A stretch of 33,286 nucleotides of DNA from an uncultured delta proteobacterium. Its GTDB lineage: Bacteria > Desulfobacterota > Syntrophia > Syntrophales > Smithellaceae. The number at the start of each line of letters is the position of its first letter. Positions within the stretch are counted from its first letter, which is position 1. The translations under genes and the position numbers were made by a program. Below are positions 10,846 to 31,087 of the stretch, piece after piece. Where the stretch lies: contig CAIVDK010000357.1 in the NCBI GenBank assembly GCA_903904655.1, positions 1 to 33,286 of the forward strand, written 5' to 3'. The notes under the pieces are model-generated. The model was given only the letters and a program-made list of their open reading frames with translations, was not told the DNA's origin and did no database searches.

Positions 10846-13128
10846 TTATCGGGCGCTCCCGGTCAGCTGAAAGGACGCCCAGTAATAAGGATGCGGATAT
10901 TTTTTGCGCGTCTCCAGTTGAGCGTTCCGCAAGGCATTCAGCTTATCCGTTTGCTGCATGCCCTGATAGAACCGGATCATCAGGTGGGCCGTGGCCAGAT
11001 CGTCCACTTTCCAGAGACTGGCTACAATGGAGCTTGCCCCGGCATAGAGAAATCCCCGTGTCAGTCCCACCAGATCATCTCCGTTGGCCACTTTGCTCAA
11101 GCCTGTTTCACAGGCGCTCAGGGTTACCAGATTGGCGCCAAGCTGCAAGGAATAAAGCTTGTCCACGGTCAAAAGACCGTTGGAACGGACGTCGGGCGAT
11201 AAAAGAAGAGCGGACTGCAACGGGCTGTCTGGTGAAAACCGACCGTGTGTGGCGAAGTGAATGATGTTAAAGTCCGACCCGTGGTTGCGCAGGGCGTCTT
11301 CCGTGGCTTCTTTGCGAACATAGACTTTTGAGCGCGGCCATATTTTTGCAACCTCCACAGCCTCTTTCTGGGCAAAGGCAAGATCATGACGGGGATCACC
11401 GAGATCGGGATTACCGAAGGCCAGGATGCCGCCTCGTTTTCCTTCTTTCTTCTCTCCGAGATATTTCATGGTGCTGGCGCTGGGCATTAATCGGATTTTA
11501 TACCGGTCGATCAGATACTGTTTCCCGTCATGCAGGGCATTCATGGGAATGTAGTGCAGCAGACCGTGGGGGACGATAATAACGTCGCGGCCATGGAGCG
11601 CACCTTCCAGAGGTTTGAATAAACGGGAATAAAGCCTGCCTGACGGCGTCAATGTGGTCTGCGAGCGGGGATTCTCCAGGGCCTTCCGAAAGGCGGCCAC
11701 GTCTTCGGCAAGCCCGGCTGCCTGAAGCTTGACGCTTTGCAAACCACGCTCGGAAAGCACAAAAGCAAACATATCATCGCCATTATAGTAGTATTCAACC
11801 AGAGCCTCGCCCCGCGGAATATAAGATTGGATGTCGGATACGGGCGCGGAGGCAACCGTCACCAGCGAGGCCAACTCCGGAGCCTCGCGTTGCAAATCCC
11901 GGCGCGCCTTGACGACAATGCTCCGGCTTCGGGACTTGTCCATTTTGCTATCCAGGGCTAGAATATCTTCTTCCGACTTGTCTGCGGCAACCAGGACATC
12001 GCGCACCTGTTCCACATTTCCCGCCGTCTTTACGGCAAAGTTTTTCTTGCCGGCCAGGAGATCCACCAGCGCGCGGGATTTGGAACGCTCCACATATTCG
12101 AACGCTTTCCCGTATTGTTTGTCGGCATAGAGCGACGTGATCAGGCGGTGATAAACGGCCTGCTTATTCCCGACAAATCCGATTTTGCTCGCCTCGACAT
12201 TGATGGTGGACCGTTGCTGTTCGACGACCTCCGCCGCTTTTTCGTAAAACCCGATCGCTTCTTTGAGGTTGCCTTCTTTTTCGGCGATCCGTCCCCGGTC
12301 AAAGAGAATGATCCAGTGCATTTCCCCGCGATCCTGCATGTAGGGATACGCGAGAAGAGCGTCGTAGCCCTGTTTGGCCTCGGATGTGCGTCCCACTTCC
12401 ATAAGGCTCTTGTTCTTCATAAACTCAAAAGAAAGCTTATTGTTGACGAAGACGTCCCACCCGCTGATGGTTTTCAGAAAGGCATTCGAGTCATCAAATT
12501 TGTAGGAAACGATATTGATAGCGTCGGAGTATTTCCTGAGGATGATGTAAATTCTGGCCAGCGCAATGTTGCGATCATCCGTGACCAGCATGTAGGGATA
12601 ACCCAGATATAATCCCTTGAGCTGGTCGGCTGTGGCATTGGCCTTATCCTTTTTACCGGCCAGGGCATAGGCAATGCCCAGGACTTCCAGAATCTTGATT
12701 TCTTCAAATCGCGTCAATTGTTTATCGACAACTATTTTGTTGGCGATTTCGGCGGCCCGGACCGCCTCATCGTACTGTCCCAGTTCAATCAGGGCAATGG
12801 CCTTCAACCTCGATGGGGTTGCCGAATGGTTCCACGCGTCGGCGGTAAAATCGCCTGCATTTACTTTGCCCTGCGCCGCTTCCAGACAGGGAAAGAGTTT
12901 CCGGTAATTTTTCAATTCGCCGTAGGCCGAGCAAAGATAGATCAAGTCCTGAAAAGGCAGACCGGCGTATTTTCCCTGCTGCGGTTCAAATTCTTTGACG
13001 ATTTGTGTGTAATTCGCCTCGGCGGCCAGGTTCAATCCCCGGCTGTTAAACGACGCGGCGCAACCGGTTAATAACAGCGCTGCCAGGATTGCAGCAGACA
13101 AGAAACATATCTTCTTTCCCAATGCCAT
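10846..13128 (-). CDS. CHAT-domain protein with TPR repeats, lipoprotein
   Basis: This is a 760-residue protein. The signal peptide ends in the lipobox LLTGC, so it is probably lipid-anchored. Residues ~40-400 are helical with TPR-like repeats (GQYDEAVRAAEIANKI; GNLKEAIGFYEKAAEVVEQQ). The C-terminal ~250 residues are a CHAT domain (caspase fold, PF12770) with the His-Cys dyad visible in IIHFATHG (His ~628) and TLSACETG (Cys ~673), then SLWKVDD. CHAT proteins are caspase-like proteases or scaffolds; substrate unknown. An in-frame TTG at 13134 exists, but ATG 13128 has the AAAGG site at better distance. A good sigma-70 promoter lies upstream at 13180-13208. It looks monocistronic. Confidence 0.85.
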   Translation of the reverse strand: MALGKKICFLSAAILAALLLTGCAASFNSRGLNLAAEANYTQIVKEFEPQQGKYAGLPFQDLIYLCSAYGELKNYRKLFPCLEAAQGKVNAGDFTADAWNHSATPSRLKAIALIELGQYDEAVRAAEIANKIVVDKQLTRFEEIKILEVLGIAYALAGKKDKANATADQLKGLYLGYPYMLVTDDRNIALARIYIILRKYSDAINIVSYKFDDSNAFLKTISGWDVFVNNKLSFEFMKNKSLMEVGRTSEAKQGYDALLAYPYMQDRGEMHWIILFDRGRIAEKEGNLKEAIGFYEKAAEVVEQQRSTINVEASKIGFVGNKQAVYHRLITSLYADKQYGKAFEYVERSKSRALVDLLAGKKNFAVKTAGNVEQVRDVLVAADKSEEDILALDSKMDKSRSRSIVVKARRDLQREAPELASLVTVASAPVSDIQSYIPRGEALVEYYYNGDDMFAFVLSERGLQSVKLQAAGLAEDVAAFRKALENPRSQTTLTPSGRLYSRLFKPLEGALHGRDVIIVPHGLLHYIPMNALHDGKQYLIDRYKIRLMPSASTMKYLGEKKEGKRGGILAFGNPDLGDPRHDLAFAQKEAVEVAKIWPRSKVYVRKEATEDALRNHGSDFNIIHFATHGRFSPDSPLQSALLLSPDVRSNGLLTVDKLYSLQLGANLVTLSACETGLSKVANGDDLVGLTRGFLYAGASSIVASLWKVDDLATAHLMIRFYQGMQQTDKLNALRNAQLETRKKYPHPYYWASFQLTGSAR

Positions 13129-13179
13129 AAGCAATGCCTTTCCCTGTTATTTGACAGGACCTTCTTTTTCGTGGAAGAA

Positions 13180-14115: not shown

Positions 14116-14150
14116 TTAATACAATTTTATGAAACAGGAGACCAGTGAAA

Positions 14151-14852
14151 ATGAAAAAAATGAATTACTCGATTGAAGACCGTATCGCCAGGATTACCCT
14201 GGATGACGGAAAAATGAACGTGATGAACTGGGAATTTTTCAGTGAACTCAATGAATGCCTTGATAAGGCTGAAGCCGAAAATGCCCAGGTTCTTATCTTT
14301 ACAGCAAAACCAGGTGTTTTTTCCGCCGGTCTGGATCTGAAGTTACTGCCGACCTTGTCTTTCCAGGAGCAGATAAAGTTTCAGAAAACTTTTGCCACGA
14401 CGATGATGCGACTCTATTTATTCCCCATTCCAACGATTGCAGCCTATTGCGGACATTCCATTGCCGGCGGCGCCATTCTTTCTTATGCCTGTGATCGCTT
14501 CATGGCCGTTGACGGGCCGTATAAAATTCAAATCAACGAGATAGCCAACCATATGGTTCTGCCCAGCTGGATTCTGCTTATTTGCCGTTCTTCGATTCCT
14601 CCCGGTTACTGGAAAGAAGCTCTCTTGCACGCTCATATTTATACGCCTCGGGAGGCTTTTGAAAAAGGCATTATAGATGACCTGATTCCTGAAAAGGGTG
14701 ATGTTCAGGAAGCCGCGAACGTATATGCCAGGGATCTTTTCCGGCTTGGCGTTCCCATGTATGCGGCGTCAAAAAGATTTCTGCGCCAGAAGGAAGCGGA
14801 TGATGCTCTGAGAGCTTTTGACCATGAAATTCTGGAATTATTGCTAAAATAA
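14151..14852 (+). CDS. Enoyl-CoA hydratase/isomerase (crotonase) family protein
   Basis: This protein of about 233 residues has the crotonase fold. Marks are ARITLDDGKMNVM near the N-terminus, the oxyanion-hole segment PGVFSAGLDLKLL and the second glycine-rich segment SIAGGAILSYACD. A Glu follows in QINEIANHM at the position of one catalytic glutamate. Crotonases hydrate, isomerise or otherwise act on acyl-CoA thioesters in the cytosol; the exact reaction cannot be read. AGGAG at 14136-14140 lies 10 bases before ATG 14151 and 4 before an in-frame GTG at 14145; either may be used. It is the first gene of the same-strand island and lies 21 bases before the thiolase-like gene. Confidence 0.82.
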   Translation: MKKMNYSIEDRIARITLDDGKMNVMNWEFFSELNECLDKAEAENAQVLIFTAKPGVFSAGLDLKLLPTLSFQEQIKFQKTFATTMMRLYLFPIPTIAAYCGHSIAGGAILSYACDRFMAVDGPYKIQINEIANHMVLPSWILLICRSSIPPGYWKEALLHAHIYTPREAFEKGIIDDLIPEKGDVQEAANVYARDLFRLGVPMYAASKRFLRQKEADDALRAFDHEILELLLK

Positions 14853-14873
14853 AAATCTCTTGAGGGAATGAAA

Positions 14874-16379
14874 ATGTCTTCTTCGCCCGTTATCATCGGT
14901 ATAGCCCAGTTTACCCAAGCTAAGAAAACAGAACGACCCCTTGACCCACTGGGGCTCATGGTCAAGACAAGCCTTGAGGCATTGAGCGATGCAGGCTCAT
15001 CGAGGCTGAAAGACGTTATCGATTGTGTGTATGTGATGAATCTCTTCCAGTGGTCCTACCGGGACGCACCAGGGCAGCTCTCGGCAAGACTTGGTCTTAG
15101 GCCGAGGCAGGCCTCTTATCTCCCTGTGGGAGGCAATACCCCGCAGTTGCTCGTGAACAAGGCGGCCCGGGATTTGGCTGCCGGCCGTTGCAAGGCCGTA
15201 CTCATGACCGGTGCGGAAGCCATCTATTCCCTGCGAAGGGCTTTGAAGGGCGATATCGTGCTGGATTGGCCGGAGAGTGTGCCCCCGGACCGGATCGATG
15301 GAGAGAATACAAACGGCGTGGATAAGATCGAAGAGTTATACGACCTCTTTTTCCCGTCATTCATGTATCCGTTGTTTGAGACATCTTTGCGGGCGTCATC
15401 CGGCAGGTCTCCCGAAGAACATCAGATGTACATGGGAAAGTCTTTTGAACGTCTTTCCCGGATTGCTTCCCAAAACCCGTTTGCCTGGTCAAAACAGTCG
15501 TTATCCGCTCAGGTGATAGCCACGCCTACACCGGACAATCGGTATGTCGGATACCCCTATACCAAGTACATGAATGCCAATGTCGATGTGGACCAGTCTG
15601 CTGCGGTCATCATGACCACGGAAGATTCTGCGCGGTCCCTCGGTATCCCTGAGGATAAATGGGTTTATCCCATAGGCGGTGCGGACTTCAATGATGTCTG
15701 GCATGTCACACACAGACCGTGCCTTCATGAATCGCCGGCCATACGCCATGCAGCCCGCATTGCCCTTGAGCAGGCTGACCTGACCCTTGAGGACATCGAT
15801 GTGTTCGACCTCTACAGCTGCTTTCCCTCAGCTTTTGAGATTGCCCGGAGAGAAATAGGCATTCCGGAGGATGACCGGAGAGACTTGAGCGTCACTGGGG
15901 GGCTTCCTTTCTTTGGCGGCCCGGGGAATAACTATTCGATGCACGCCATCGCTGCAGTCGTTGATCTGATCAGGAAGGACCGCTCGCGAAAGGCCATGGT
16001 GACGGCCAACGGCTGGTACCTGACAAAACACGCAATCGGCGTCTATGCCGGGTCATCTTCCGGACAACCGTGGGATGACCGGGATGATTCACCCGTGCAG
16101 CGCTCAATCAATGCAAAAGCCCTACCCATGCCCATTGAAAGGGCGTCAGGTTCTATGATGGTTGAGGCCTATGTCATCCAGCACGACAAGGCCGGCAAGC
16201 CGGTGAAGGGGACTGTGGTCGGCAGGCTTGAAGATGGCGGCAGGGCGTTGGCAGTTATTGACGCAGGCCTGGAAGAACTTCTGGAGATGGAGACGTTCGA
16301 GCTGGTTGGCAAGCAAGGTGATGTCCGGTATGATCAGGCAACCGGCAGGAATTTAGCTCGGTTCAATTTCAATACTTGA
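14874..16379 (+). CDS. Thiolase-like acetyl-CoA acetyltransferase with C-terminal OB-type extension
   Basis: This is a 501-residue protein. The N-terminal ~380 residues look like the SCP2-type thiolase group: VIIGIAQFTQ, the GGNTPQLLVNKAARDLAAGRCKAVLMTGAEA segment, DVFDLYSCFPSAFEI and GGLPFFGGPGNNYSMHAIA. The usual nucleophilic Cys position reads GGNT rather than a clear Cys motif, so activity as a classical thiolase is doubtful. The last ~100 residues (EAYVIQHDKAGKPVKGTVVGRLEDGGRALA) resemble OB-fold/DUF35-like partners. Such proteins act on acyl-CoA carbon-carbon bonds, often with a separate OB-fold partner. ATG 14874 is chosen because GAGGG is 7 bases upstream; ATG 14868 would be only 1 base away. 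Confidence 0.75.
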   Translation: MSSSPVIIGIAQFTQAKKTERPLDPLGLMVKTSLEALSDAGSSRLKDVIDCVYVMNLFQWSYRDAPGQLSARLGLRPRQASYLPVGGNTPQLLVNKAARDLAAGRCKAVLMTGAEAIYSLRRALKGDIVLDWPESVPPDRIDGENTNGVDKIEELYDLFFPSFMYPLFETSLRASSGRSPEEHQMYMGKSFERLSRIASQNPFAWSKQSLSAQVIATPTPDNRYVGYPYTKYMNANVDVDQSAAVIMTTEDSARSLGIPEDKWVYPIGGADFNDVWHVTHRPCLHESPAIRHAARIALEQADLTLEDIDVFDLYSCFPSAFEIARREIGIPEDDRRDLSVTGGLPFFGGPGNNYSMHAIAAVVDLIRKDRSRKAMVTANGWYLTKHAIGVYAGSSSGQPWDDRDDSPVQRSINAKALPMPIERASGSMMVEAYVIQHDKAGKPVKGTVVGRLEDGGRALAVIDAGLEELLEMETFELVGKQGDVRYDQATGRNLARFNFNT

Positions 16380-16483
16380 GCTTGATGGCTTTCATCTGCA
16401 TGAAGGTCCAGCGGATGTGTGTTAACTTATGGTTTGTTATTAATAATCTTTTAAACTACAATGCGTATGCTAGGAGGAATCTT

Positions 16484-17359
16484 ATGGATCAGCTCAGACC
16501 TTATCGTTCTTTTGTGAGTTATATCGACCGCAGTAGAGAATATTACGCTGCCCAGGGCTATGACAAACCATATACATGGCCGCACTATGACTATATTCCC
16601 TTTACTCCCCTGCGAAAGCCGCTTTCGGAATGCCGTGTCGGATTGGTAACAACCACAGGTTTGCCAAAGCCTGTCGACCCCATGCAGGCCATTATGTATC
16701 GTCGGGAGATATACGCCCAACCGGCAATTCCGCCGCCAACATCTCTCTATACCGATGATCTGTTTTGGGATAAGAAAGCCACCCACACGAAGGATGTGGA
16801 CAGCTTTTTACCCGTGAACCGCCTGGCGGAGTATGCCCAAAAAGGATACATCGGATCGGCCTCACCCCGGTTCTATGGCGTACCCACTGATTACAGCCAG
16901 CCCAGGACCATCGAACGTTATGGCCCCCAGATTCTCAAATGGTGTCGCGAGGACGGTCTCGATGCCGTGATCCTTTTGGCGCTTTGACCGGTTTGCCACC
17001 AGACCGTGAGTCTGGTTGCCCGTCACCTGGAGGAGAATGGTCTTGCAACGGTCATCATGGGGTGTGCGCGGGACATTGTCGAAGAGTGCGGCGTCGCGCG
17101 CTTTGTGTTTACCGATTTTCCCCTGGGGAACCCCTCTGGCAAACCGTGGGACGCAGGGATGCAATACGCGACCGTAGGCATCGCGCTTGATCTTCTTGAA
17201 CGGGCCTGGATGCCGCGTACCACGATTCAGACTCCTTACCAATGGCACAACGATGAATGGCGGGAAGCCTTCATGAAGGTTGACGCCACCAATCGCGAGG
17301 CCCTTGCCCGCGAAGGAGAGAAGCGTCGCGAAATTCAGGCCAAAGTGAAGAAAAGTTAG
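16484..17359 (+). CDS. Selenoprotein of the glycine/sarcosine/betaine reductase B family (in-frame UGA = Sec)
   Basis: One frame runs from ATG 16484 (AGGAGG at 16472-16477) to TAG 17357-17359, 291 residues, interrupted only by TGA at 16985-16987. Read as selenocysteine this gives LLAL-U168-P-V-C171-HQTVSLVARHLEENG, a U-x-x-C redox pair at the position where the GrdB-like family (PF07355) carries Sec or Cys. Sequence after the UGA continues the same domain (FVFTDFPLGNPSGKPWD). A SECIS-type hairpin follows (see 16998-17016). GrdB-type proteins reductively cleave C-N bonds in glycine, sarcosine or betaine; shorter family members such as this one have unknown substrates. Without recoding the gene appears as two fragments, the second starting at GTG 17006. 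A frameshift or simple nonsense mutation is less likely because the frame is kept and the hairpin is present. Confidence 0.85.
16998..17016 (+). promoter_or_regulatory. SECIS-type hairpin for selenocysteine insertion
   Basis: ACCAGAC (16998-17004) pairs perfectly with GTCTGGT (17010-17016) around a 5-base loop CGTGA. After one mismatch (16997/17017), GC (16995-16996) pairs with GC (17018-17019). The loop begins 17 bases after the UGA and has G as its second base. Published rules for bacterial SECIS (loop 16-37 bases from UGA, short loop, G in the first two loop positions) are met. Confidence 0.75.
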
Positions 17360-17482: not shown

Positions 17483-18874
17483 ATGCGACCCATTCGGGAA
17501 GTCTTGGAAGCTAAAAGTATTGCAGTTATCGGGGCATCGCGGGATCAGGAGAAGCCGGGCGCGCAGCTTCTTAAAGTTCTGAAAAGAGTTGGATATCAGG
17601 GTCATGTCGCAGGTGTAAATCCTCAGGGTGGAGAAGTTTTTGGCAACACTTTATATCGAAGTCTGGAAGAAATTCCCTTCGATGTTGAGCTGGCGGTTTT
17701 GCTTATTCCCCCCCGGTTTGTTCCTGATGCCCTGCGGGAGTGCGCCCGTAAAGGTGTCAAGGGGGTAGTGATTTCCGCGGAGGGTTTTGCGGAAACAGGG
17801 CCCCAGGGGGCAAAGTATCAGGAAGAAGTAAGCGCTATCTTAAAATCCACAGGCATGAGGGGATTTGGACCCAATACCTTGGGCTTGGTCAATACGGCAA
17901 CCAAACTGACCACGTCTTATTTTGCCAATTCCTGGATGTTGATGCCCGGATCCATTGGATTTGCCGCGCAGTCCGGGATTTTTGTGGGGGCACTTCTGCG
18001 GTATTTGAGTTCCATCAATGGACTGCATCTCTCCAAAGGTATTGGTCTGGGAAACAAAGTGGATGTGAACGAAGCGGATGCTCTTTCCTACCTCATGGAT
18101 GACGAGCAGACCAAGATCATCGGCCTGTATCTGGAGGATGTCAAAGATGGACGTCTGTTTCTGGAAAATCTCAGGAAGGCTGTGGCTAAAAAGCCCGTGC
18201 TCATCATCAAGAGCGGGCGGACTCAGGCGGGCGCCAGGGCTTCGGCATCTCATACGGCAAGCCTCGCGGTCGAAGACACTGTTTTTGACGGCGCTATCCG
18301 CCAGGCGGGCGCCATCCGTCTGACCGGGATCGATGATTTTATCCGCACGCTTAGAGGCTTTTTGAATATGCCCCTTCCCAAGGGAGATCGGCTGGCTTTT
18401 GTTACCTATAGCGGGGCTCAGGCTATTATGAGCATCGATGCGGCCATTGATCATGGACTGCAGGTGGCCATCCTGAGCGAAGCTACTCAGGCAAGAATTG
18501 CCAAGGTGATCGCAACGTCTTCCAAGACCAAAAACCCGATTGACATTTTTCCCGATTGGTTAGCCCATGGATATGAAAAGACAACGTCCGAGATCCTGGA
18601 AGCCCTCTTGGATGACGACGGGGTGGACGGCATTGTTTTTATTTCTTTTGCCGATGCCACGCCGGAAGTGTACCAGCCCATGGCTGATATTCTCAAGGGG
18701 GACCGCCGCAAGCCGGTCTTTTTGTCCCTGTTGGGGGATATTAAAGACAAAGAAGCCTGTCAAAAGTTTCTGGATGCGAATGGCCTGCCTTGTTATGATT
18801 TCCCCGAATATGCCGTTCGCGTCTTTGCCCATATGCGGCAATATGCAAGGACCAAAGAAAGACAGGCAGAATAG
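17483..18874 (+). CDS. ADP-forming acyl-CoA synthetase, alpha subunit (CoA-binding plus ligase domains)
   Basis: This is a 463-residue protein. The N-terminal CoA-binding Rossmann domain shows SIAVIGASRDQEKPGAQLL, and the succinyl-CoA-ligase-like domain follows (FGPNTLGLVNTAT, AAQSGIFVGALLRYL, IGLGNKVDVNEAD). The phosphohistidine loop GARASASHTASLA places His at residue 257. The family makes acyl-CoA from acid, ATP and CoA, or the reverse with ATP gain, in the cytosol. The ATP-grasp beta part is not fused and no beta gene is in the window, so it must be supplied elsewhere. ATG 17483 is preferred to TTG 17462 because of the GAAGGG site 8 bases upstream. Part of this gene is duplicated as a decayed fragment near 26548. 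Confidence 0.87.
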   Translation: MRPIREVLEAKSIAVIGASRDQEKPGAQLLKVLKRVGYQGHVAGVNPQGGEVFGNTLYRSLEEIPFDVELAVLLIPPRFVPDALRECARKGVKGVVISAEGFAETGPQGAKYQEEVSAILKSTGMRGFGPNTLGLVNTATKLTTSYFANSWMLMPGSIGFAAQSGIFVGALLRYLSSINGLHLSKGIGLGNKVDVNEADALSYLMDDEQTKIIGLYLEDVKDGRLFLENLRKAVAKKPVLIIKSGRTQAGARASASHTASLAVEDTVFDGAIRQAGAIRLTGIDDFIRTLRGFLNMPLPKGDRLAFVTYSGAQAIMSIDAAIDHGLQVAILSEATQARIAKVIATSSKTKNPIDIFPDWLAHGYEKTTSEILEALLDDDGVDGIVFISFADATPEVYQPMADILKGDRRKPVFLSLLGDIKDKEACQKFLDANGLPCYDFPEYAVRVFAHMRQYARTKERQAE

Positions 18875-18935: not shown

Positions 18936-19871
18936 ATGAAAGTTTTAAGAACACCCGATGAACGATTTGAGAATCTTCCCGGCTACTCTTTCGCGCCTCA
19001 TTATGTAGAGATTCCTGATGGTGAAGGTGGAAATCTGAGAATCCATTACGTTGATGAGGGCACAAGAGATGCCGATGTTGTTTTGCTCATCCATGGGGAA
19101 CCCACCTGGTCATTCCTTTATCGCAAGATGATCCCCATTATTGTGAAAGCCGGACATCGGGTGATCGCCCCCGATCTGGTCGGTTTCGGCAGATCCGATA
19201 AACCGGCCAGTCGGAACGATTATTCGTTTCAACGCCACGTGGATTGGATGCTGTCTTTGCTCGATAAACTCAAGTTGACGCGGATTACACTTGTTTGTCA
19301 GGACTGGGGAGGCCTCATCGGACTTCGCCTTGTCGCAGCGAAACCAGACCTCTTCGATCGGGTTATAGCCGCCAACACAGGTTTGCCTACCGGAGATGGA
19401 CCGATTACCGACGCTTTTCTGGCGTGGCAGAAATATTCTAAAGAAGCTCCCCATTTCGAGGTGGGCGCCATTATCAAAATGTCCAATCCGGCCTTTTCAA
19501 AAGACAACAGTTTACCGATTCTTTCCGACGAGGTTGTTGCCGCATACGACGCGCCGTTTCCCGATGATTCCTACAAGGAAGGCGCCCGCATCTTCCCGTC
19601 ACTTGTTCCCACAAAACCGGAAGATCCTTCTGCAGCGGCCAACCGTAAGGCATGGGAAGTGCTTTCAGCCTTTAAGAAGCCATTCCTGACAGCATTCAGT
19701 GATGGCGATCCGATAACACGCGGAGGTGATCACGTTTTTCAAAAGCGGATTCCCGGTACGCAGGGCCAACCCCATACAACGATTAAAGGGGCAGGGCATT
19801 TCCTGCAGGAAGACAAAGGAGAGGAATTTGCCGAAGTCACCGTAGCTTTCATCGCGAAAACGTCTGCGTAG
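18936..19871 (+). CDS. Haloalkane dehalogenase homologue, subfamily I (alpha/beta hydrolase)
   Basis: This is a 311-residue protein resembling Xanthobacter DhlA along its length: RTPDERFENL at the start, HGEPTWSFLYRKMIP, and APFPDDSYKEGARIFP. The nucleophile elbow CQDWGG gives Asp123 followed by halide-binding Trp124; the acid is in FSDGDPIT (Asp256 or Asp258, after strand 7, as in subfamily I), and His288 is in GAGHFLQED. Trp164 in FLAWQ may be the second halide-binding Trp. These enzymes hydrolyse carbon-halogen bonds in the cytosol without cofactors; real substrate range is unknown, and an esterase or epoxide hydrolase role is an alternative. AGGAGGAAAGCGC precedes the ATG. It lies 61 bases after the synthetase gene. 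Confidence 0.85.
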   Translation: MKVLRTPDERFENLPGYSFAPHYVEIPDGEGGNLRIHYVDEGTRDADVVLLIHGEPTWSFLYRKMIPIIVKAGHRVIAPDLVGFGRSDKPASRNDYSFQRHVDWMLSLLDKLKLTRITLVCQDWGGLIGLRLVAAKPDLFDRVIAANTGLPTGDGPITDAFLAWQKYSKEAPHFEVGAIIKMSNPAFSKDNSLPILSDEVVAAYDAPFPDDSYKEGARIFPSLVPTKPEDPSAAANRKAWEVLSAFKKPFLTAFSDGDPITRGGDHVFQKRIPGTQGQPHTTIKGAGHFLQEDKGEEFAEVTVAFIAKTSA

Positions 19872-20839: not shown

Positions 20840-20965
20840 ATGAACCGGCTGCGCATATTTCAGTTGAAAAGGATCGATAACCTTATCTACGGATGCGGCC
20901 TTTGCGCCACCGGCGTACCCTGTGAATCAGAGATTCCGAAGCAACTCCAGAGAGGTGCTGTATGA
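20840..20965 (+). CDS. Possible 41-residue cysteine-motif small protein
   Basis: This short frame from ATG 20840 to TGA 20965 encodes a basic N-terminus and then YGCGLCATGVPCESEIP, three cysteines spaced like part of a ferredoxin motif. A TAGGA site lies about 7 bases upstream. Its stop overlaps the start of the next gene (ATGA), which suggests translational coupling. It also lies in the same frame as the preceding NPD-like gene, separated by that gene's TGA. It may be a real small protein, a leader for coupling, or a decayed ferredoxin end. Confidence 0.4.
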   Translation: MNRLRIFQLKRIDNLIYGCGLCATGVPCESEIPKQLQRGAV

Positions 20966-21846
20966 GTGTGCCAATCAAGGGATCTATAGATAAAGTCGAC
21001 GCCCCGACCGTTAAGCAATGGATTCAGGCCGAAGGCATAGACCTGGTAGCTATCGCCGATGCGCGAAATTTAAGTCTGGCATTTCCAACACGGCCGGCGA
21101 CGGCGCTGATGCCGTCTGCCAGAAGTGTCATCGTTATGGCCGTTGCCCATTCGCTGGGCGCCGTGTATTCCCCGAATATCATGCTCTGGACGCGGAGCAA
21201 GATGCAGACATCCCGGTTGCTGGATGAAACCGCTGAAAAAATTGGCCGCCTGCTTGAACGGGAAGGATTTCTCTCTCTTCCGATTTCAGCGGATAAGCCC
21301 GTGGAGATATTTAAACACGACCCAGAGACTGGCAAAAAGTTCCGCCAGACCCGTACATCAGGGTTTATCTCGCTTAAGCATGCGGCCGTCAGTTGCGGCA
21401 TGGGTGAGATAGGCGGGAACAATCTGCTGCTCACGCCAGAATTCGGGCCACATCAGCGGTTGTGTGCCATCGTGACGGAAGCGCCCCTTGCAGCCGATCC
21501 GGGTCGGGAACTCGATCTTTGTAATCACTGCGGGCGGTGCGTAAAGGCGTGTCCATCAGGGGCTTTGAAAGATGACCGCTATGATGTTGATCCCTGCTTT
21601 GCCTACTGGAGTTCCGGTTTCAAGCGTCTGCCGCCGGTGAAGTTCCGGGAATGGCCGGGATATGTCAGAATGATAGTTCAACATTTGAAACGTCGGGATC
21701 TCCTGGTGGAAATGGGTCAGACTTATATCACGGATGTGGACAATTGCATCGAGTGTATGCGTGTCTGTCCGGTGGGTGAAAATTGGAAGGAAATTCGGCC
21801 GAAGCTGCTGCCACCACAGAAATCCAGTGGGACGGAAATTCAATAG
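20962..21846 (+). CDS. QueG/RdhA-like iron-sulfur protein
   Basis: This 294-residue protein resembles the epoxyqueuosine reductase/reductive dehalogenase superfamily: PSARSVIVMAVAHSLG near the N-terminus, AAVSCGMGEIGGNNLLLTPEFG (counterpart of GLGWIGKNTLLINPEFG in QueG), then ferredoxin cysteines CNHCGRCVKAC (187-197) and CIECMRVCP (262-269). It is shorter than QueG (~370-380) and lacks a YGRDYH-like segment that carries the catalytic acid, so queuosine synthesis is unlikely. Superfamily members use a corrinoid plus two [4Fe-4S] clusters for reductive chemistry. No Tat signal is present, so it is cytosolic. AGAGG precedes the ATG by 7 bases. Neighbouring dehalogenase and selenoprotein genes make a reductive role in the island plausible. 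Confidence 0.72.
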   Translation: MSVPIKGSIDKVDAPTVKQWIQAEGIDLVAIADARNLSLAFPTRPATALMPSARSVIVMAVAHSLGAVYSPNIMLWTRSKMQTSRLLDETAEKIGRLLEREGFLSLPISADKPVEIFKHDPETGKKFRQTRTSGFISLKHAAVSCGMGEIGGNNLLLTPEFGPHQRLCAIVTEAPLAADPGRELDLCNHCGRCVKACPSGALKDDRYDVDPCFAYWSSGFKRLPPVKFREWPGYVRMIVQHLKRRDLLVEMGQTYITDVDNCIECMRVCPVGENWKEIRPKLLPPQKSSGTEIQ

Positions 21847-23014: not shown

Positions 23015-23509
23015 ATGGCAGAGAAGATTGAGATCAAAGACGAGTGGAAGGCACAACTCGGCATCGACTCTCCGCCCTGGACCTACGAGGTGACCACCAC
23101 CAGCATCCGTGCCTTTGCCAGAGGCGTGGGGTATACCGACCCGGTTTATTATGATATCGATGTTGCCAGGGCGGCGGGGTACCAAAATTTGCCGGCGCCC
23201 CCGTGCTACCTGGGCACCCCGGTGTTTATCCCCGGCAAATCCGATGACACGTTTTCCGGACCGGTGAATTCCGGTATGAGTCTTCTTCAGTTCGAGCTGG
23301 TCAATGTTCTTGATGGCGGCACAGAAGTCGAATATTTCGACTCCATTTGCGCAGGAGACATTCTGACGGCCGTCAATCGACTGGTCGGACTCGATGTGCG
23401 CGAAAGCAAGGCGCTCGGGCAGATGCTGATCCTTAGCCTGGAAATGGAATACAAGAATCCAACCGGAAAAGTAGTCATGATTTCACGCGGTCAGACAATC
23501 TTATATTAA
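23015..23509 (+). CDS. MaoC-like hydratase subunit, FAS1-type N-terminal hot-dog domain
   Basis: This 164-residue single hot-dog domain resembles the MaoC N-terminal dehydratase family (PF13452): SIRAFARGVGYTDPVYYD, APPCYLGTPVFIPG and a C-terminal strand YKNPTGKVVMISRGQTILY. Such halves pair with a catalytic MaoC half to hydrate enoyl-thioesters or dehydrate 3-hydroxyacyl-thioesters. The catalytic Asp/His motif is not in this half but in the gene 12 bases downstream, so a heterodimer is expected. GGGAGG precedes the ATG. Confidence 0.8.
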   Translation: MAEKIEIKDEWKAQLGIDSPPWTYEVTTTSIRAFARGVGYTDPVYYDIDVARAAGYQNLPAPPCYLGTPVFIPGKSDDTFSGPVNSGMSLLQFELVNVLDGGTEVEYFDSICAGDILTAVNRLVGLDVRESKALGQMLILSLEMEYKNPTGKVVMISRGQTILY

Positions 23510-23521
23510 GGAGAAATAAAA

Positions 23522-23938
23522 ATGGCTCTCACATGGGATAACATAAAAGAAGGGGATGCGTTGCCGGAAATGAAAAAAACACCGGGCGTCACCCAATTGG
23601 TAAAATATGCGGCGGGAGGCGGTGATTTTAACCCAATGCATCATGATTACAATTTTTTCCAATCCAAGGCGATCGGTTCCATCATCGTCCACGGTCGATT
23701 TAAATGGTCCTCTCTCGGCGAACTCGTGTCCAACTGGCTGGGTCACCAGGGACGAATCAAGAAGGTTTCCTGCCAGTATCGGGGTATGGATTTTCCGGAT
23801 CAGGAAATGACCGTCAAAGGCGTTGTCGAGAGGAAATGGCAGGAAGGCGGAGAAAAACTAGTGGAAGTTGCTGTCTGGACTGAAAACGCGGAAGGCAAAC
23901 TGACGACTCCAGGTAAGGCTGTTGTTATATTTAAATAA
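23522..23938 (+). CDS. MaoC-like hydratase subunit carrying the catalytic motif
   Basis: This is a 138-residue hot-dog protein with the hydratase-2 motif GGGDFNPMHHDYNFFQSKAI (Asp and His of the R-hydratase type) and IVHGRFKWSSLGEL. It would hydrate 2-enoyl-CoA or dehydrate 3-hydroxyacyl-CoA of R configuration with the partner encoded just upstream. It starts 12 bases after that gene, with AAGGAG at the end of the partner, so the two are very probably cotranslated. It complements the crotonase at the start of the island; two hydratase types suggest more than one hydration step or stereochemistry. Confidence 0.85.
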   Translation: MALTWDNIKEGDALPEMKKTPGVTQLVKYAAGGGDFNPMHHDYNFFQSKAIGSIIVHGRFKWSSLGELVSNWLGHQGRIKKVSCQYRGMDFPDQEMTVKGVVERKWQEGGEKLVEVAVWTENAEGKLTTPGKAVVIFK

Positions 23939-24007
23939 GGGAGAGCAGGAGGAACATCTTCCGTTCAATAAGGTTCATAACACACAGGAGCGAAAAGGGG
24001 AAATATT

Positions 24008-24841
24008 ATGACTGATTTATCCGCGTACCATGAGGCCGGGCGCCGGCTCATTGAAAAGCTGAGGCTTTATACCGATCCCGTGGCCATCAAATACATCCGG
24101 GATGTTGCGGAGATACCTGACCAGGCCCGCAGGCCTTCGGCAAAAGGTCAGAAGTGGGCACTCTGCCAGGCATTCACCTATGCCCGCCGCCATCGAATGC
24201 ATGTGGCGATGACATCCGACGATAACTTCTGCATCCCTTCAACAGTGGGGCATCGCTGGGAAGACGTGCCCAATGAAGATCTGATTGAAAGCCAGGTGCG
24301 ACAGGGTTGGCATAAAGACCGGGCAGCCGAAGAGAAAAGGTTTGCGTTCGCCATGAATCTGATCGGTGAAGCGAATTACGAGCGGATGGCCGAATTCAAG
24401 GGATTTGTCTGTTCGCCTCTGGCTGATGCGCTTGTTACACCCGATTCGATACTGATCTATGGTGATGGCGTCCAGATCACTCACATCATCCAGGCACTGA
24501 CCTACGAGTATAAGTACCCTGTTACTTCTTCCTTTGAAGGGTTCGGCGAATCATGCCAGAAAGGGGCTCTGATGCCTTTCTTGACGGGGAAGCCGCAAGT
24601 TGTCATTCCGGGGATGGGCGATCGTGCATTCTCCGGTACAACCGAAAACGAAATAGCCATCGGGATTCCGGGCCATCTCGTTTTCTATGTCCTCGGTAAT
24701 CTCTTCAAGTCCGGCGGACGCCTCAATATCGGGCAGCCGGTGAGAACCGTCCTGCCCAACAACATTACGGAGCGAATGACGCCAGGCTATTCTTTTATGT
24801 ATGACAAGATTCAGGAATACAAAAATACAAAGGAGAAATAA
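24008..24841 (+). CDS. DUF169 family protein
   Basis: This 277-residue protein matches the DUF169 family (PF02596) in its arrangement: an N-terminal EKLRLYTDPVAIKYI, ALCQAFTYARRHRM with a conserved Cys, GFVCSPLADALVTPDSILIYGDG in the middle and a C-terminal GMGDRAFSGTTENEIAIGIP. DUF169 proteins occur in anaerobes beside methyl-, corrinoid- and acyl-CoA-related genes; no reaction is established to my knowledge. AGGGG lies upstream of the ATG. One base separates its stop from the start of the DUF1330 gene, so the pair is cotranslated. Confidence 0.75.
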   Translation: MTDLSAYHEAGRRLIEKLRLYTDPVAIKYIRDVAEIPDQARRPSAKGQKWALCQAFTYARRHRMHVAMTSDDNFCIPSTVGHRWEDVPNEDLIESQVRQGWHKDRAAEEKRFAFAMNLIGEANYERMAEFKGFVCSPLADALVTPDSILIYGDGVQITHIIQALTYEYKYPVTSSFEGFGESCQKGALMPFLTGKPQVVIPGMGDRAFSGTTENEIAIGIPGHLVFYVLGNLFKSGGRLNIGQPVRTVLPNNITERMTPGYSFMYDKIQEYKNTKEK

Positions 24842-28406: not shown

Positions 28407-29771
28407 TTAATATATATTGAATGTCTCACTGGCAATCTTGACACCTTCCACGTAAAGGTCCACACGGTAGGTGCCCGCAATCCATGTGTTGGACGCTTTT
28501 TCTCTCCAGCCATACCCGGTATTATGATGGGAATAAGTCCAGTTTTCAAGGACATAAGGGTTAAATGTCGAACGAAATATCTCTATGGAGCTAGGATTAT
28601 GCCAGATGTGTTCAATAACAAATTCTTTCTTTTTACCTTGAGCTGGATACTCAAGGGTAAGCTCCCAATTCACATATCGCGTTCCCGTTCTGGAAAAACT
28701 GGTCCTGTATGAACGCTGATCCATCGGAGGCGCATCATAGCCGCTTTCGAAAAACTTGACGTGGGTCACTTTTGCGTTCAGAAAATCAATAGACCTTGTG
28801 CCTCTAACCGCTTCCGCTTTGGCCACATGGGCAAGTCTTAGTTTTTCTTCATTGAGTTTTCTGCGTTCCTCTTCCATCCGGCGCCTTGTCTCGGCAAGAG
28901 CGTTCTTTTCAGCAAGAAGCGCCGCTTCTTTGCGCAGTCCTTCCTTTTCCTCCGCTAACTTTCTTCGTTCTTCTTCCAAATCGGTTTTCTCAAAAACCGT
29001 ATTGGGAAGTGTCGGCTGTCTTGCCCCGCCGGTATTAAAGTAAAAATCACCACTCAAGGACGACAATTCCCATGGAATCTGCAGTCCGTTCGTTTTATTA
29101 GCCAGTTCCTGACGTATTTTTTTGAATAAATGTTCAATAGGCAAGTTGGGCGTGATCATGTGCTTTAAAAGGGATTCAGTGTAGGGGCTGTTGCGTCCTT
29201 TGCCGTCGGCGGCCACATTTCCGGGGCTTGTGGAATAAGTAATAAAAGTGCCCCGCGGTGCTGAAGGAATAATGCTGAGACCGCGGCTGGCTGAACGAAA
29301 ACTTCGGCTGAAGGGATTGTCGCGACAGGCGTCAAGAATGACTATATTCATGCCGTTTGCGGCGTTATCCATTTCGTCAAGAATTCTCCCTGCATTGACC
29401 GCCCGGTACTTGATATCCGATTCCTTCTTAATGTTTGCACCTATCGGAATAAGATAGTTCGATCCATAAACCTGAATGCCATGGCCGGCATAGAAAAATA
29501 AACCGATACCGCCCTTTTTCAGCCGATTGCCGAAATCCTCAATGGCTTCTTCCATCACTTCAAGATTGGCGTTATTTTTGAGAATTACCGTAAACCCGAG
29601 TTTTTTTAAGGCTGCCGCCATATCCGAGGCATCATTGACGGGATTAGCCAGAGGCGCGGCATCATAACTGCCGTTGCCAATGACAAGCGCTAACCTTTGT
29701 TCGGCGGCTGCCGGCAAACTAACGGTGATGAATAAAAGGAACAGCAATGATGTAATGATCACTTTTTTCAT
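28407..29771 (-). CDS. Exported caspase-fold (peptidase C14-like) protein with coiled coil
   Basis: This is a 454-residue protein. The signal peptide MKKVIITSLLFLLFITVSLPAAA is followed directly by a metacaspase-like domain: RLALVIGNGSYDAAPLANPVNDA, FFYAGHG (His97) and VILDACRDNPF (Cys149) make up the His-Cys dyad, and APRGTFITYSTSPGNVA follows. Residues ~265-320 are a charged coiled coil (EEERRKLAEEKEGLRKEAA). The C-terminal ~130 residues form an extra domain without a family I can name. It is probably a periplasmic cysteine protease with specificity after basic residues, by family. ATG 29771 is chosen because it begins the signal peptide; the frame is open further upstream without a start signal. 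Confidence 0.85.
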   Translation of the reverse strand: MKKVIITSLLFLLFITVSLPAAAEQRLALVIGNGSYDAAPLANPVNDASDMAAALKKLGFTVILKNNANLEVMEEAIEDFGNRLKKGGIGLFFYAGHGIQVYGSNYLIPIGANIKKESDIKYRAVNAGRILDEMDNAANGMNIVILDACRDNPFSRSFRSASRGLSIIPSAPRGTFITYSTSPGNVAADGKGRNSPYTESLLKHMITPNLPIEHLFKKIRQELANKTNGLQIPWELSSLSGDFYFNTGGARQPTLPNTVFEKTDLEEERRKLAEEKEGLRKEAALLAEKNALAETRRRMEEERRKLNEEKLRLAHVAKAEAVRGTRSIDFLNAKVTHVKFFESGYDAPPMDQRSYRTSFSRTGTRYVNWELTLEYPAQGKKKEFVIEHIWHNPSSIEIFRSTFNPYVLENWTYSHHNTGYGWREKASNTWIAGTYRVDLYVEGVKIASETFNIY

Positions 29772-29908
29772 GATGCAGATTCTAGCAGAAATTAAAAAAT
29801 AAAAATACCTTTGTCTATATTCTCGTGACGATATATTTCCTTTACAGCGGTGAAAAATATTTGTAGGCTTTGAACAAGAAATAAAAGAAAGAAACGGAAA
29901 AATGTATA

Positions 29909-31087
29909 ATGAAGCAAAAAATAATAAAACCGGCCGCCGACTTTCGGCGGTTATCAATACCCCTGATCATTTTAGTACTGACAGTGTTTCAACTTCAACC
30001 GGCCCTGGCCCTGCCTTTCCAGGACAGTTCCCACGCTGTTCCCGCCGCGGCCATGAAGCTTGTTCAGTTCGGGGCTGATCCCAAAGCCGGATTCGATGCC
30101 CGGGCCGCCGCTACGCTTGTGGACTATGTTTTCGGATCAAAGCCGAATAAGGAAGCTGATCTCCCGATATTCCAGAAAACCCCTGGAGCCTATTATGAAT
30201 TCGACACAAGGATAAGTTTCTCCAATTTTCTGCAATACTCCTACAGCAACCAAATTCCTTCGGTTCTAACAAGCCCGTCGTCTCTGCGCTATTCTCTGTG
30301 GACCGGCTCCCAGGGGAAATTACAAAAATTGCCCAACAGTTGGATATTGGTCTTGCCGGATGGCAAGCCCGTAATCATTCGAGGATCACAACGCGACGGC
30401 ATCACGCCGGATCTTACCACCGGTGTTTACTATGAATACGAACTGAATAGAACGCTTATCCTTTTTAATCACAAGGGACGGCAGGCGCTTATTTCCATTT
30501 CCAAACAAATTAATATATCCGATGTTGGGAAAAAAGGCTTCATTCTGGGGGATGATGACGATTGGAATTACTACTATTCGGGCGAACCCGGCTCGGCTAA
30601 AGCAGGTCTGGGCTGGGTTAAATCCTATATCTACGACTATTTTTCCGTGAGCGTTCATGTCGAGACGGGCTCTTCGCCATCCATGGTCAGAACCGGAATA
30701 TTTCAATGGATTCGGGCCGGATGGTCTGGAATTAATTTTGTTCAAACGGAGCATATCATCAAGGGAATGAAGCGGTATGCCAAAAATTCAAAAACCATCC
30801 TTGAATCGCCAAGCCTACCCGCGCCAAACCAGATAGCCTCCGCTTATCAACGGCTTTCATCCTTGCCCCAAAGTGATTTACTGGAAAAATATGCGGCCTT
30901 GCAGCAGGCCCGACAGTCCCTGGCCGTTCAGAGCGGGAAAATCGAAACAACCAAAATTAAAAAAAATGACTCTTATACCGGCATCCCGAAAGAGCAAATC
31001 GTCGAAGAATTGATGCTGGAGTATTTGAAGGGTGTTCTTGGCAAATCATCCTTGTTAGGGAAGCAAGTCGTTTTGGGTATGAATTAA
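29909..31087 (+). CDS. Exported protein of unknown function
   Basis: This is a 392-residue protein. A long signal peptide (hydrophobic IPLIILVLTVFQLQPALA, cleavage near residue 35) points to export. The mature part is rich in Tyr, Trp and Ser with beta-like stretches (YYEFDTRISFSNFLQYSYS; SYIYDYFSVSVHVETGSS) and a helical, charged C-terminus. No domain is recognised and no metal-binding or catalytic motif stands out. It is divergent from the caspase-fold gene and 63 bases before the SDR gene. A surface or periplasmic structural role is possible but not shown. Confidence 0.6.
   Translation: MKQKIIKPAADFRRLSIPLIILVLTVFQLQPALALPFQDSSHAVPAAAMKLVQFGADPKAGFDARAAATLVDYVFGSKPNKEADLPIFQKTPGAYYEFDTRISFSNFLQYSYSNQIPSVLTSPSSLRYSLWTGSQGKLQKLPNSWILVLPDGKPVIIRGSQRDGITPDLTTGVYYEYELNRTLILFNHKGRQALISISKQINISDVGKKGFILGDDDDWNYYYSGEPGSAKAGLGWVKSYIYDYFSVSVHVETGSSPSMVRTGIFQWIRAGWSGINFVQTEHIIKGMKRYAKNSKTILESPSLPAPNQIASAYQRLSSLPQSDLLEKYAALQQARQSLAVQSGKIETTKIKKNDSYTGIPKEQIVEELMLEYLKGVLGKSSLLGKQVVLGMN

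Follow-up and report, generated by a model that had tools for sequence, protein, structure and literature searches.

A probable free-standing selenoprotein of the PrdB/GrdB family encoded through an in-frame UGA in a Smithellaceae genome

Within the window, by which we mean the whole 33,286-nucleotide stretch of DNA analyzed here, a 291-codon frame on the + strand (16484–17359; ATG at 16484, TAG at 17357–17359) contains a single internal TGA at 16985–16987. Does this codon end a gene or encode selenocysteine, and if it is read through, what kind of protein does the frame specify? The original prediction had described one frame with a lone in-frame TGA and good start signals, and its coordinates all check. 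A Shine–Dalgarno sequence, AGGAGG (16472–16477, + strand), lies 6 nt before the ATG. Upstream of the gene is also a promoter-like TTGTTA-17-TACAAT (16434–16462, + strand), found by consensus match only; such matches are no evidence of function. Overall, the locus is best explained as encoding a free-standing UxxC selenol reductase of the PrdB/GrdB family, a reading to which we assign a probability of roughly 80%.

We examined conservation of the UGA at three scales. All 54 homologous loci read at the sequence level, the window included, carry a TGA at the same site followed by xxC, and 27 of them form a clade whose members are 48–96% identical. Of four further matches among these loci, those in L040 and L050 are out of frame and amount to noise, and those in L030 and L055 are full-length GrdB-type proteins. 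Exactly one TGA occurs in the homologues of all seven relatives (62–95% identity). A search of 155 genomes of the class recovered orthologues down to 48% identity, and a search of 395 genomes of the phylum found 96 with a homologue. The TGA is present in every listed match from either search that spans residue 168; the few rows without it are fragments lying to one side of that residue. The nearest named records, from Syntrophaceae, Smithellaceae, and Smithella metagenome-assembled genomes (MAGs), show 82–95% protein identity. Two variations were seen among the matches: one locus (L026) has a second TGA, at codon 252 of a 257-codon match, and one genome of the phylum sample (G235) has six places matching the family, suggesting expansion into paralogues.

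The region after the TGA is maintained as coding sequence. Pairwise dN/dS values are 0.06–0.16 both before and after the TGA, indicating purifying selection on both parts. At the position of Sec168, homologues from Roseomonas (NCPVCHQT) and Haematobacter (NCPICHQT) carry Cys; these alphaproteobacterial plasmid proteins are 43% and 41% identical to the window protein, respectively, and their alignment continues on both sides of the site. The proposal that the motif U-P-V-C falls at a Sec-or-Cys position is thus borne out by homologues that have one or the other residue there and align through the site. We also looked for the opposite pattern, a position occupied by neither Sec nor Cys with no alignment after the UGA, and this does not hold. 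The Cys form was not found among the Desulfobacterota phylum matches, a hint that the reaction depends on selenium.

The source MAG (3.81 Mb in 473 contigs, completeness 100, contamination 4.66%) contains the machinery for selenocysteine insertion. SelA (603 bits) and SelB (365 bits) both score above their cut-offs, SelD (371 bits) is itself broken by one TGA, and a tRNA-Sec with anticodon UCA is present. The original prediction had called for a search of this genome for selA, selB, selC, and selD and would have been refuted by a lack of selB or selC; all four were found. The tRNA-Sec gene and the SelD with its in-frame TGA are recorded under loci L010 (G000:C162) and L109 (G000:C311). A second tRNA-Sec candidate proved to be a tRNA-Ser and was rejected.

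A candidate bacterial SECIS hairpin (16998–17016, + strand) follows the UGA. Its 7-bp stem pairs 16998–17004 with 17010–17016 and is capped by a 5-nt apical loop, CGUGA (CGTGA in the DNA, 17005–17009). The stem starts 10 nt from the UGA and the apical loop 17 nt from it, so that the predicted spacing of 17 bases is right for the loop and not for the stem. As had been anticipated, the hairpin lies inside the published bSECIS limits (PMC13188914) for loop length (5 nt; 3–9 nt), stem length (7 bp; 4–16 bp), UGA-to-loop distance (17 nt; 16–37 nt), a G within the first two loop bases (CG), and minimum free energy (−9.1 kcal/mol; ≤ −7.5). Rfam gave no match within the window. Taken alone, the hairpin is not beyond chance, because its energy is no stronger than that of shuffled sequence (z = −0.46) and a SECIS-like stem of at least 7 bp follows about 72 of the window's 1219 TGA triplets (about 6%). 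We therefore rejected hairpin energy as evidence.

Frame and hairpin together are beyond chance: the TGA, the downstream frame, and the hairpin are kept across dozens of genomes. Over 25 close orthologues, mean third-position conservation in codons with an invariant amino acid is 0.98 within the hairpin; upstream of the TGA it is 0.60, and downstream of the hairpin 0.585. Among 28 distinct sequences, the stem is formed in 96.4% of cells, and the covariation score is 0.432 versus 0.177 when shuffled (0/500) and at most 0.078 when slid. Two-sided changes occur at three stem pairs (C-G to U-A; G-C to A-U; U-A to A-U or G-C), and 6.85 of 7 stem pairs are kept versus 4.7 (4.71) under synonymous codon resampling. 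The loop is CGUGA in the close clade and CGUGU in L099, while in distant homologues an eighth pair narrows it to GUG or a variant thereof. These orthologues offer an unusually clear example of SECIS covariation.

From these sequence comparisons, the UGA at 16985–16987 (+ strand) almost certainly encodes selenocysteine, as residue 168 of a 291-residue selenoprotein, with SelB guided by the SECIS hairpin. We give hardly any credence to an ordinary stop codon, whether between two adjacent genes, in a pseudogene, or created by a sequencing error. Mechanical ORF calling does yield two pieces, one ending at 16987 and the other starting at 17006, but the same TGA recurs in dozens of independent assemblies, and the purifying selection downstream, the Cys homologues, the SECIS covariation, and the Sec machinery all speak against termination at this codon.

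To which family does the product belong? The protein is a member of PF07355 (GRDB) in the wide sense, with a weak match of 27.7 bits against a gathering score of 22 that covers only profile positions 200–345, in the C-terminal part. The best NCBIfam profile is that of PrdB (TIGR04483), at 100.1 bits over residues 40–255; this is under the cut-off of 300, and a control PrdB scores 424.7 bits. Betaine, sarcosine, and glycine reductase B follow in that order, all far under their cut-offs (27 bits for glycine); the values for TIGR01917, NF040794, and NF040795 are 26.7, 35.1, and 53.4 bits against 602, 800, and 775. In a maximum-likelihood tree, the window protein and 28 others form one clade with support of 100/100, which includes the alphaproteobacterial Cys proteins and lies apart from both PrdB and GrdB as well as from several further Sec clades. 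Because the profile scores are below cut-off and the clade is separate, filing the protein as GrdB or PrdB is unjustified, and "PrdB/GrdB-like, standalone" fits. The earlier description as GrdB-like was accordingly loose: the PF07355 threshold is passed, but the PrdB profile is nearer (100 versus 27 bits) and the clade lies apart. Sequence searches against solved structures returned nothing convincing. A predicted structure, built with five close sequences, has a pLDDT of 53; compared with the PDB it gave no match at E ≤ 0.001, the Foldseek matches, all at E > 0.001, being to assorted folds. Phages yielded no match.

In the established chemistry, for which PMC10838667 cites the primary work, the substrate attacked by GrdB or PrdB is carried by the pyruvoyl group of GrdE or PrdA. 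Neither PF09338 (GrdE/PrdA type) nor PF04723 (GrdA) has a match in the source genome, a MAG in 473 contigs with 4.66% contamination; this absence is not absolute because of that fragmentation and contamination, though it recurs across many genomes. The PF09338 profile recognizes a known PrdA, and the same PF09338 and PF04723 searches are positive in four genomes of the class, which are the only PF09338-positive ones there and those with full-length GrdB and GrdA. In the phylum sample, PF09338 occurs in 17 of 395 genomes, 16 of them among the 96 that carry a homologue, leaving 80 of the 96 sampled Desulfobacterota carriers without it. In a cell without GrdE/PrdA or GrdA the usual pyruvoyl chemistry would be unavailable, and a free-standing selenol reductase is therefore the simplest reading. 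The missing partners also lend indirect support to the earlier suggestion of a possible substrate other than glycine or betaine.

We accordingly weighed whether the protein could be a true PrdB (or GrdB/GrdH) subunit with a pyruvoyl partner elsewhere in the genome or missed, and consider this very unlikely. That PrdB is the best profile, over residues 40–255, and that PF07355 is above its cut-off would fit such a subunit, but 100 bits is well short of the TIGR04483 cut-off of 300 and of the 425 of a real PrdB. Likewise, PF09338 and GRDA are not in the genome despite positive controls in the same class, PF09338 is missing in 80 of 96 phylum carriers, and the tree sets the protein in a separate clade. 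Within the limits of a MAG, we regard it as very likely that this PrdB/GrdB family protein stands alone, working without a pyruvoyl-bearing GrdE/PrdA and without GrdA.

The neighboring genes raise another alternative, that the selenoprotein serves an adjoining acyl-CoA pathway, for example, by reductively removing a hetero group from an intermediate that is an acyl-CoA or an acid. By profile, the gene is flanked on the same (+) strand by an enoyl-CoA hydratase/isomerase family gene (14145–14852), a thiolase-like acyltransferase gene (14868–16379), and an NDP-forming acyl-CoA ligase alpha-type gene (17483–18874), any functional link to these neighbors being putative. The predicted acyl-CoA island is therefore real as to the kind of neighbors, and close relatives within the genus share the order hydratase, thiolase, selenoprotein, ligase; however, it is confined to the window and its 94–95% identical relatives, and in L086 the thiolase position is occupied by an ORF that does not cluster with the thiolase. 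Acyl-CoA genes occur occasionally beside other orthologues (a CoA ligase in L087 and L093, an acyl-CoA dehydrogenase in L098, and a thioesterase in L096), but those that are 62–82% identical have mostly unrelated neighbors, such as two-component regulators, MnmE, YidC, QueG, and phospholipase. Because this order is common only to relatives at least 94% identical, the island is a recent local arrangement and weak evidence of function. Syntrophaceae genomes are, moreover, rich in acyl-CoA genes, which makes proximity to them weak evidence as well. We consider a role in this pathway unlikely; neighbors that differ between genera are what would be expected of a free-standing gene.

Several other genes in the window deserve mention. 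Two genes past the selenoprotein, 18939–19871 encodes a haloalkane-dehalogenase-type alpha/beta hydrolase (NF002043, 473 bits; cut-off 265), kept at that place only in L086 among the relatives compared. The product of 20962–21846 is an Fe–S protein with weak, sub-cut-off matches to QueG (46 bits) and reductive dehalogenase (42 bits), and 23015–24841 encodes two hydratase-fold proteins (FAS1_DH_region, MaoC) followed by a DUF169 protein. Translations judged by eye show CHAT-like motifs at 10846–13134 and caspase-like motifs at 28407–29957.

How might a free-standing selenol reductase of this kind work? SelB, via the SECIS hairpin with its stem 10 nt downstream, almost certainly inserts Sec at the UGA. 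Sec168, predicted to follow a beta strand and to open a helix, may then attack a small substrate that has already been activated, whether through nucleophilic displacement or through selenenylation. The other residue of the UxxC pair, Cys171, would resolve the Sec168 intermediate, and a thioredoxin-type dithiol would re-reduce the protein. The catalytic geometry is putative because the structure model is weak, and we offer the sequence of attack, resolution, and re-reduction tentatively, at somewhat less than even odds. It is improbable that the substrate is glycine or D-proline processed through a pyruvoyl Schiff base. A broader possibility, which we judge distinctly improbable, is that a large unrecognized class of free-standing PrdB-fold selenoenzymes, commonly labeled proline or glycine reductases, cleaves a C–heteroatom bond (for example, C–halogen, C–S, or C–N) of an activated acid without a pyruvoyl cofactor. 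In the window, a haloalkane-dehalogenase-type hydrolase sits two genes away.

Proteins of the Sec PrdB type have been on record since 2005, and what is new here is one more member; its interest lies in which partners are missing. Within the body of literature covered, full-text searches found no characterization of a standalone PrdB-type member, and the orthologues described here are a well-defined set for biochemistry. Sec-containing PrdB-type UxxC proteins numbered 42 in the Sargasso Sea (PMC1088965) and 235 in the GOS data (PMC2398784), where they are listed with the prokaryotic selenoproteins of highest abundance, and also occur in some Deltaproteobacteria (PMC1794560). Proteins of Geobacter uraniireducens and Anaeromyxobacter were placed in the same Sec "proline reductase PrdB" group (PMC1088965, PMC2398784, PMC1794560). 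As described, this group resembles the window protein in its pfam07355 match, its UxxC motif, and its mixture of Sec proteins and Cys homologues, and on that description the two probably belong to the same broad group; the difference is that those papers name the proteins after PrdB. The ocean surveys thus read PrdB-type selenoproteins as proline reductase, a name that probably misdescribes what such proteins do, because 80 of the 96 Desulfobacterota carriers lack a PrdA/GrdE-type subunit.

PrdB itself (TIGR04483; Clostridium sticklandii and relatives) shares with the window protein the family, the alignment over residues 40–255, a UxxC motif with Sec at the corresponding position, and a short form without the N-terminal half of GrdB. 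It differs in that the window protein has no prdA neighbor or PF09338 gene in its genome, belongs to a separate clade, and is only 28% identical to Terrisporobacter PrdB. GrdB, GrdF, and GrdH (PF07355) are alike in the matched C-terminal part of the profile and in having Sec in UxxC; however, they are about 430–440 residues long, compared to 291, the window protein reaches 27–53 bits against cut-offs of 600–800, and its genome is without GrdE and GrdA. The closest relatives found outside Desulfobacterota are the Roseomonas (WP_207415257) and Haematobacter (WP_035710215) proteins, annotated as "glycine/sarcosine/betaine reductase selenoprotein B family protein". Both organisms are known as aerobes. 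Their proteins are 41–43% identical to the window protein over most of its length and are likewise standalone, with no reductase partners adjoining, but carry Cys instead of Sec. Finally, FarB, the fluoroacetate reductase of Cloacibacillus, is by its description another GrdB-related selenoprotein with a proposed non-amino-acid substrate, and is unlike the window protein in having a proposed GrdE-like partner, FarE (PMC10838667).
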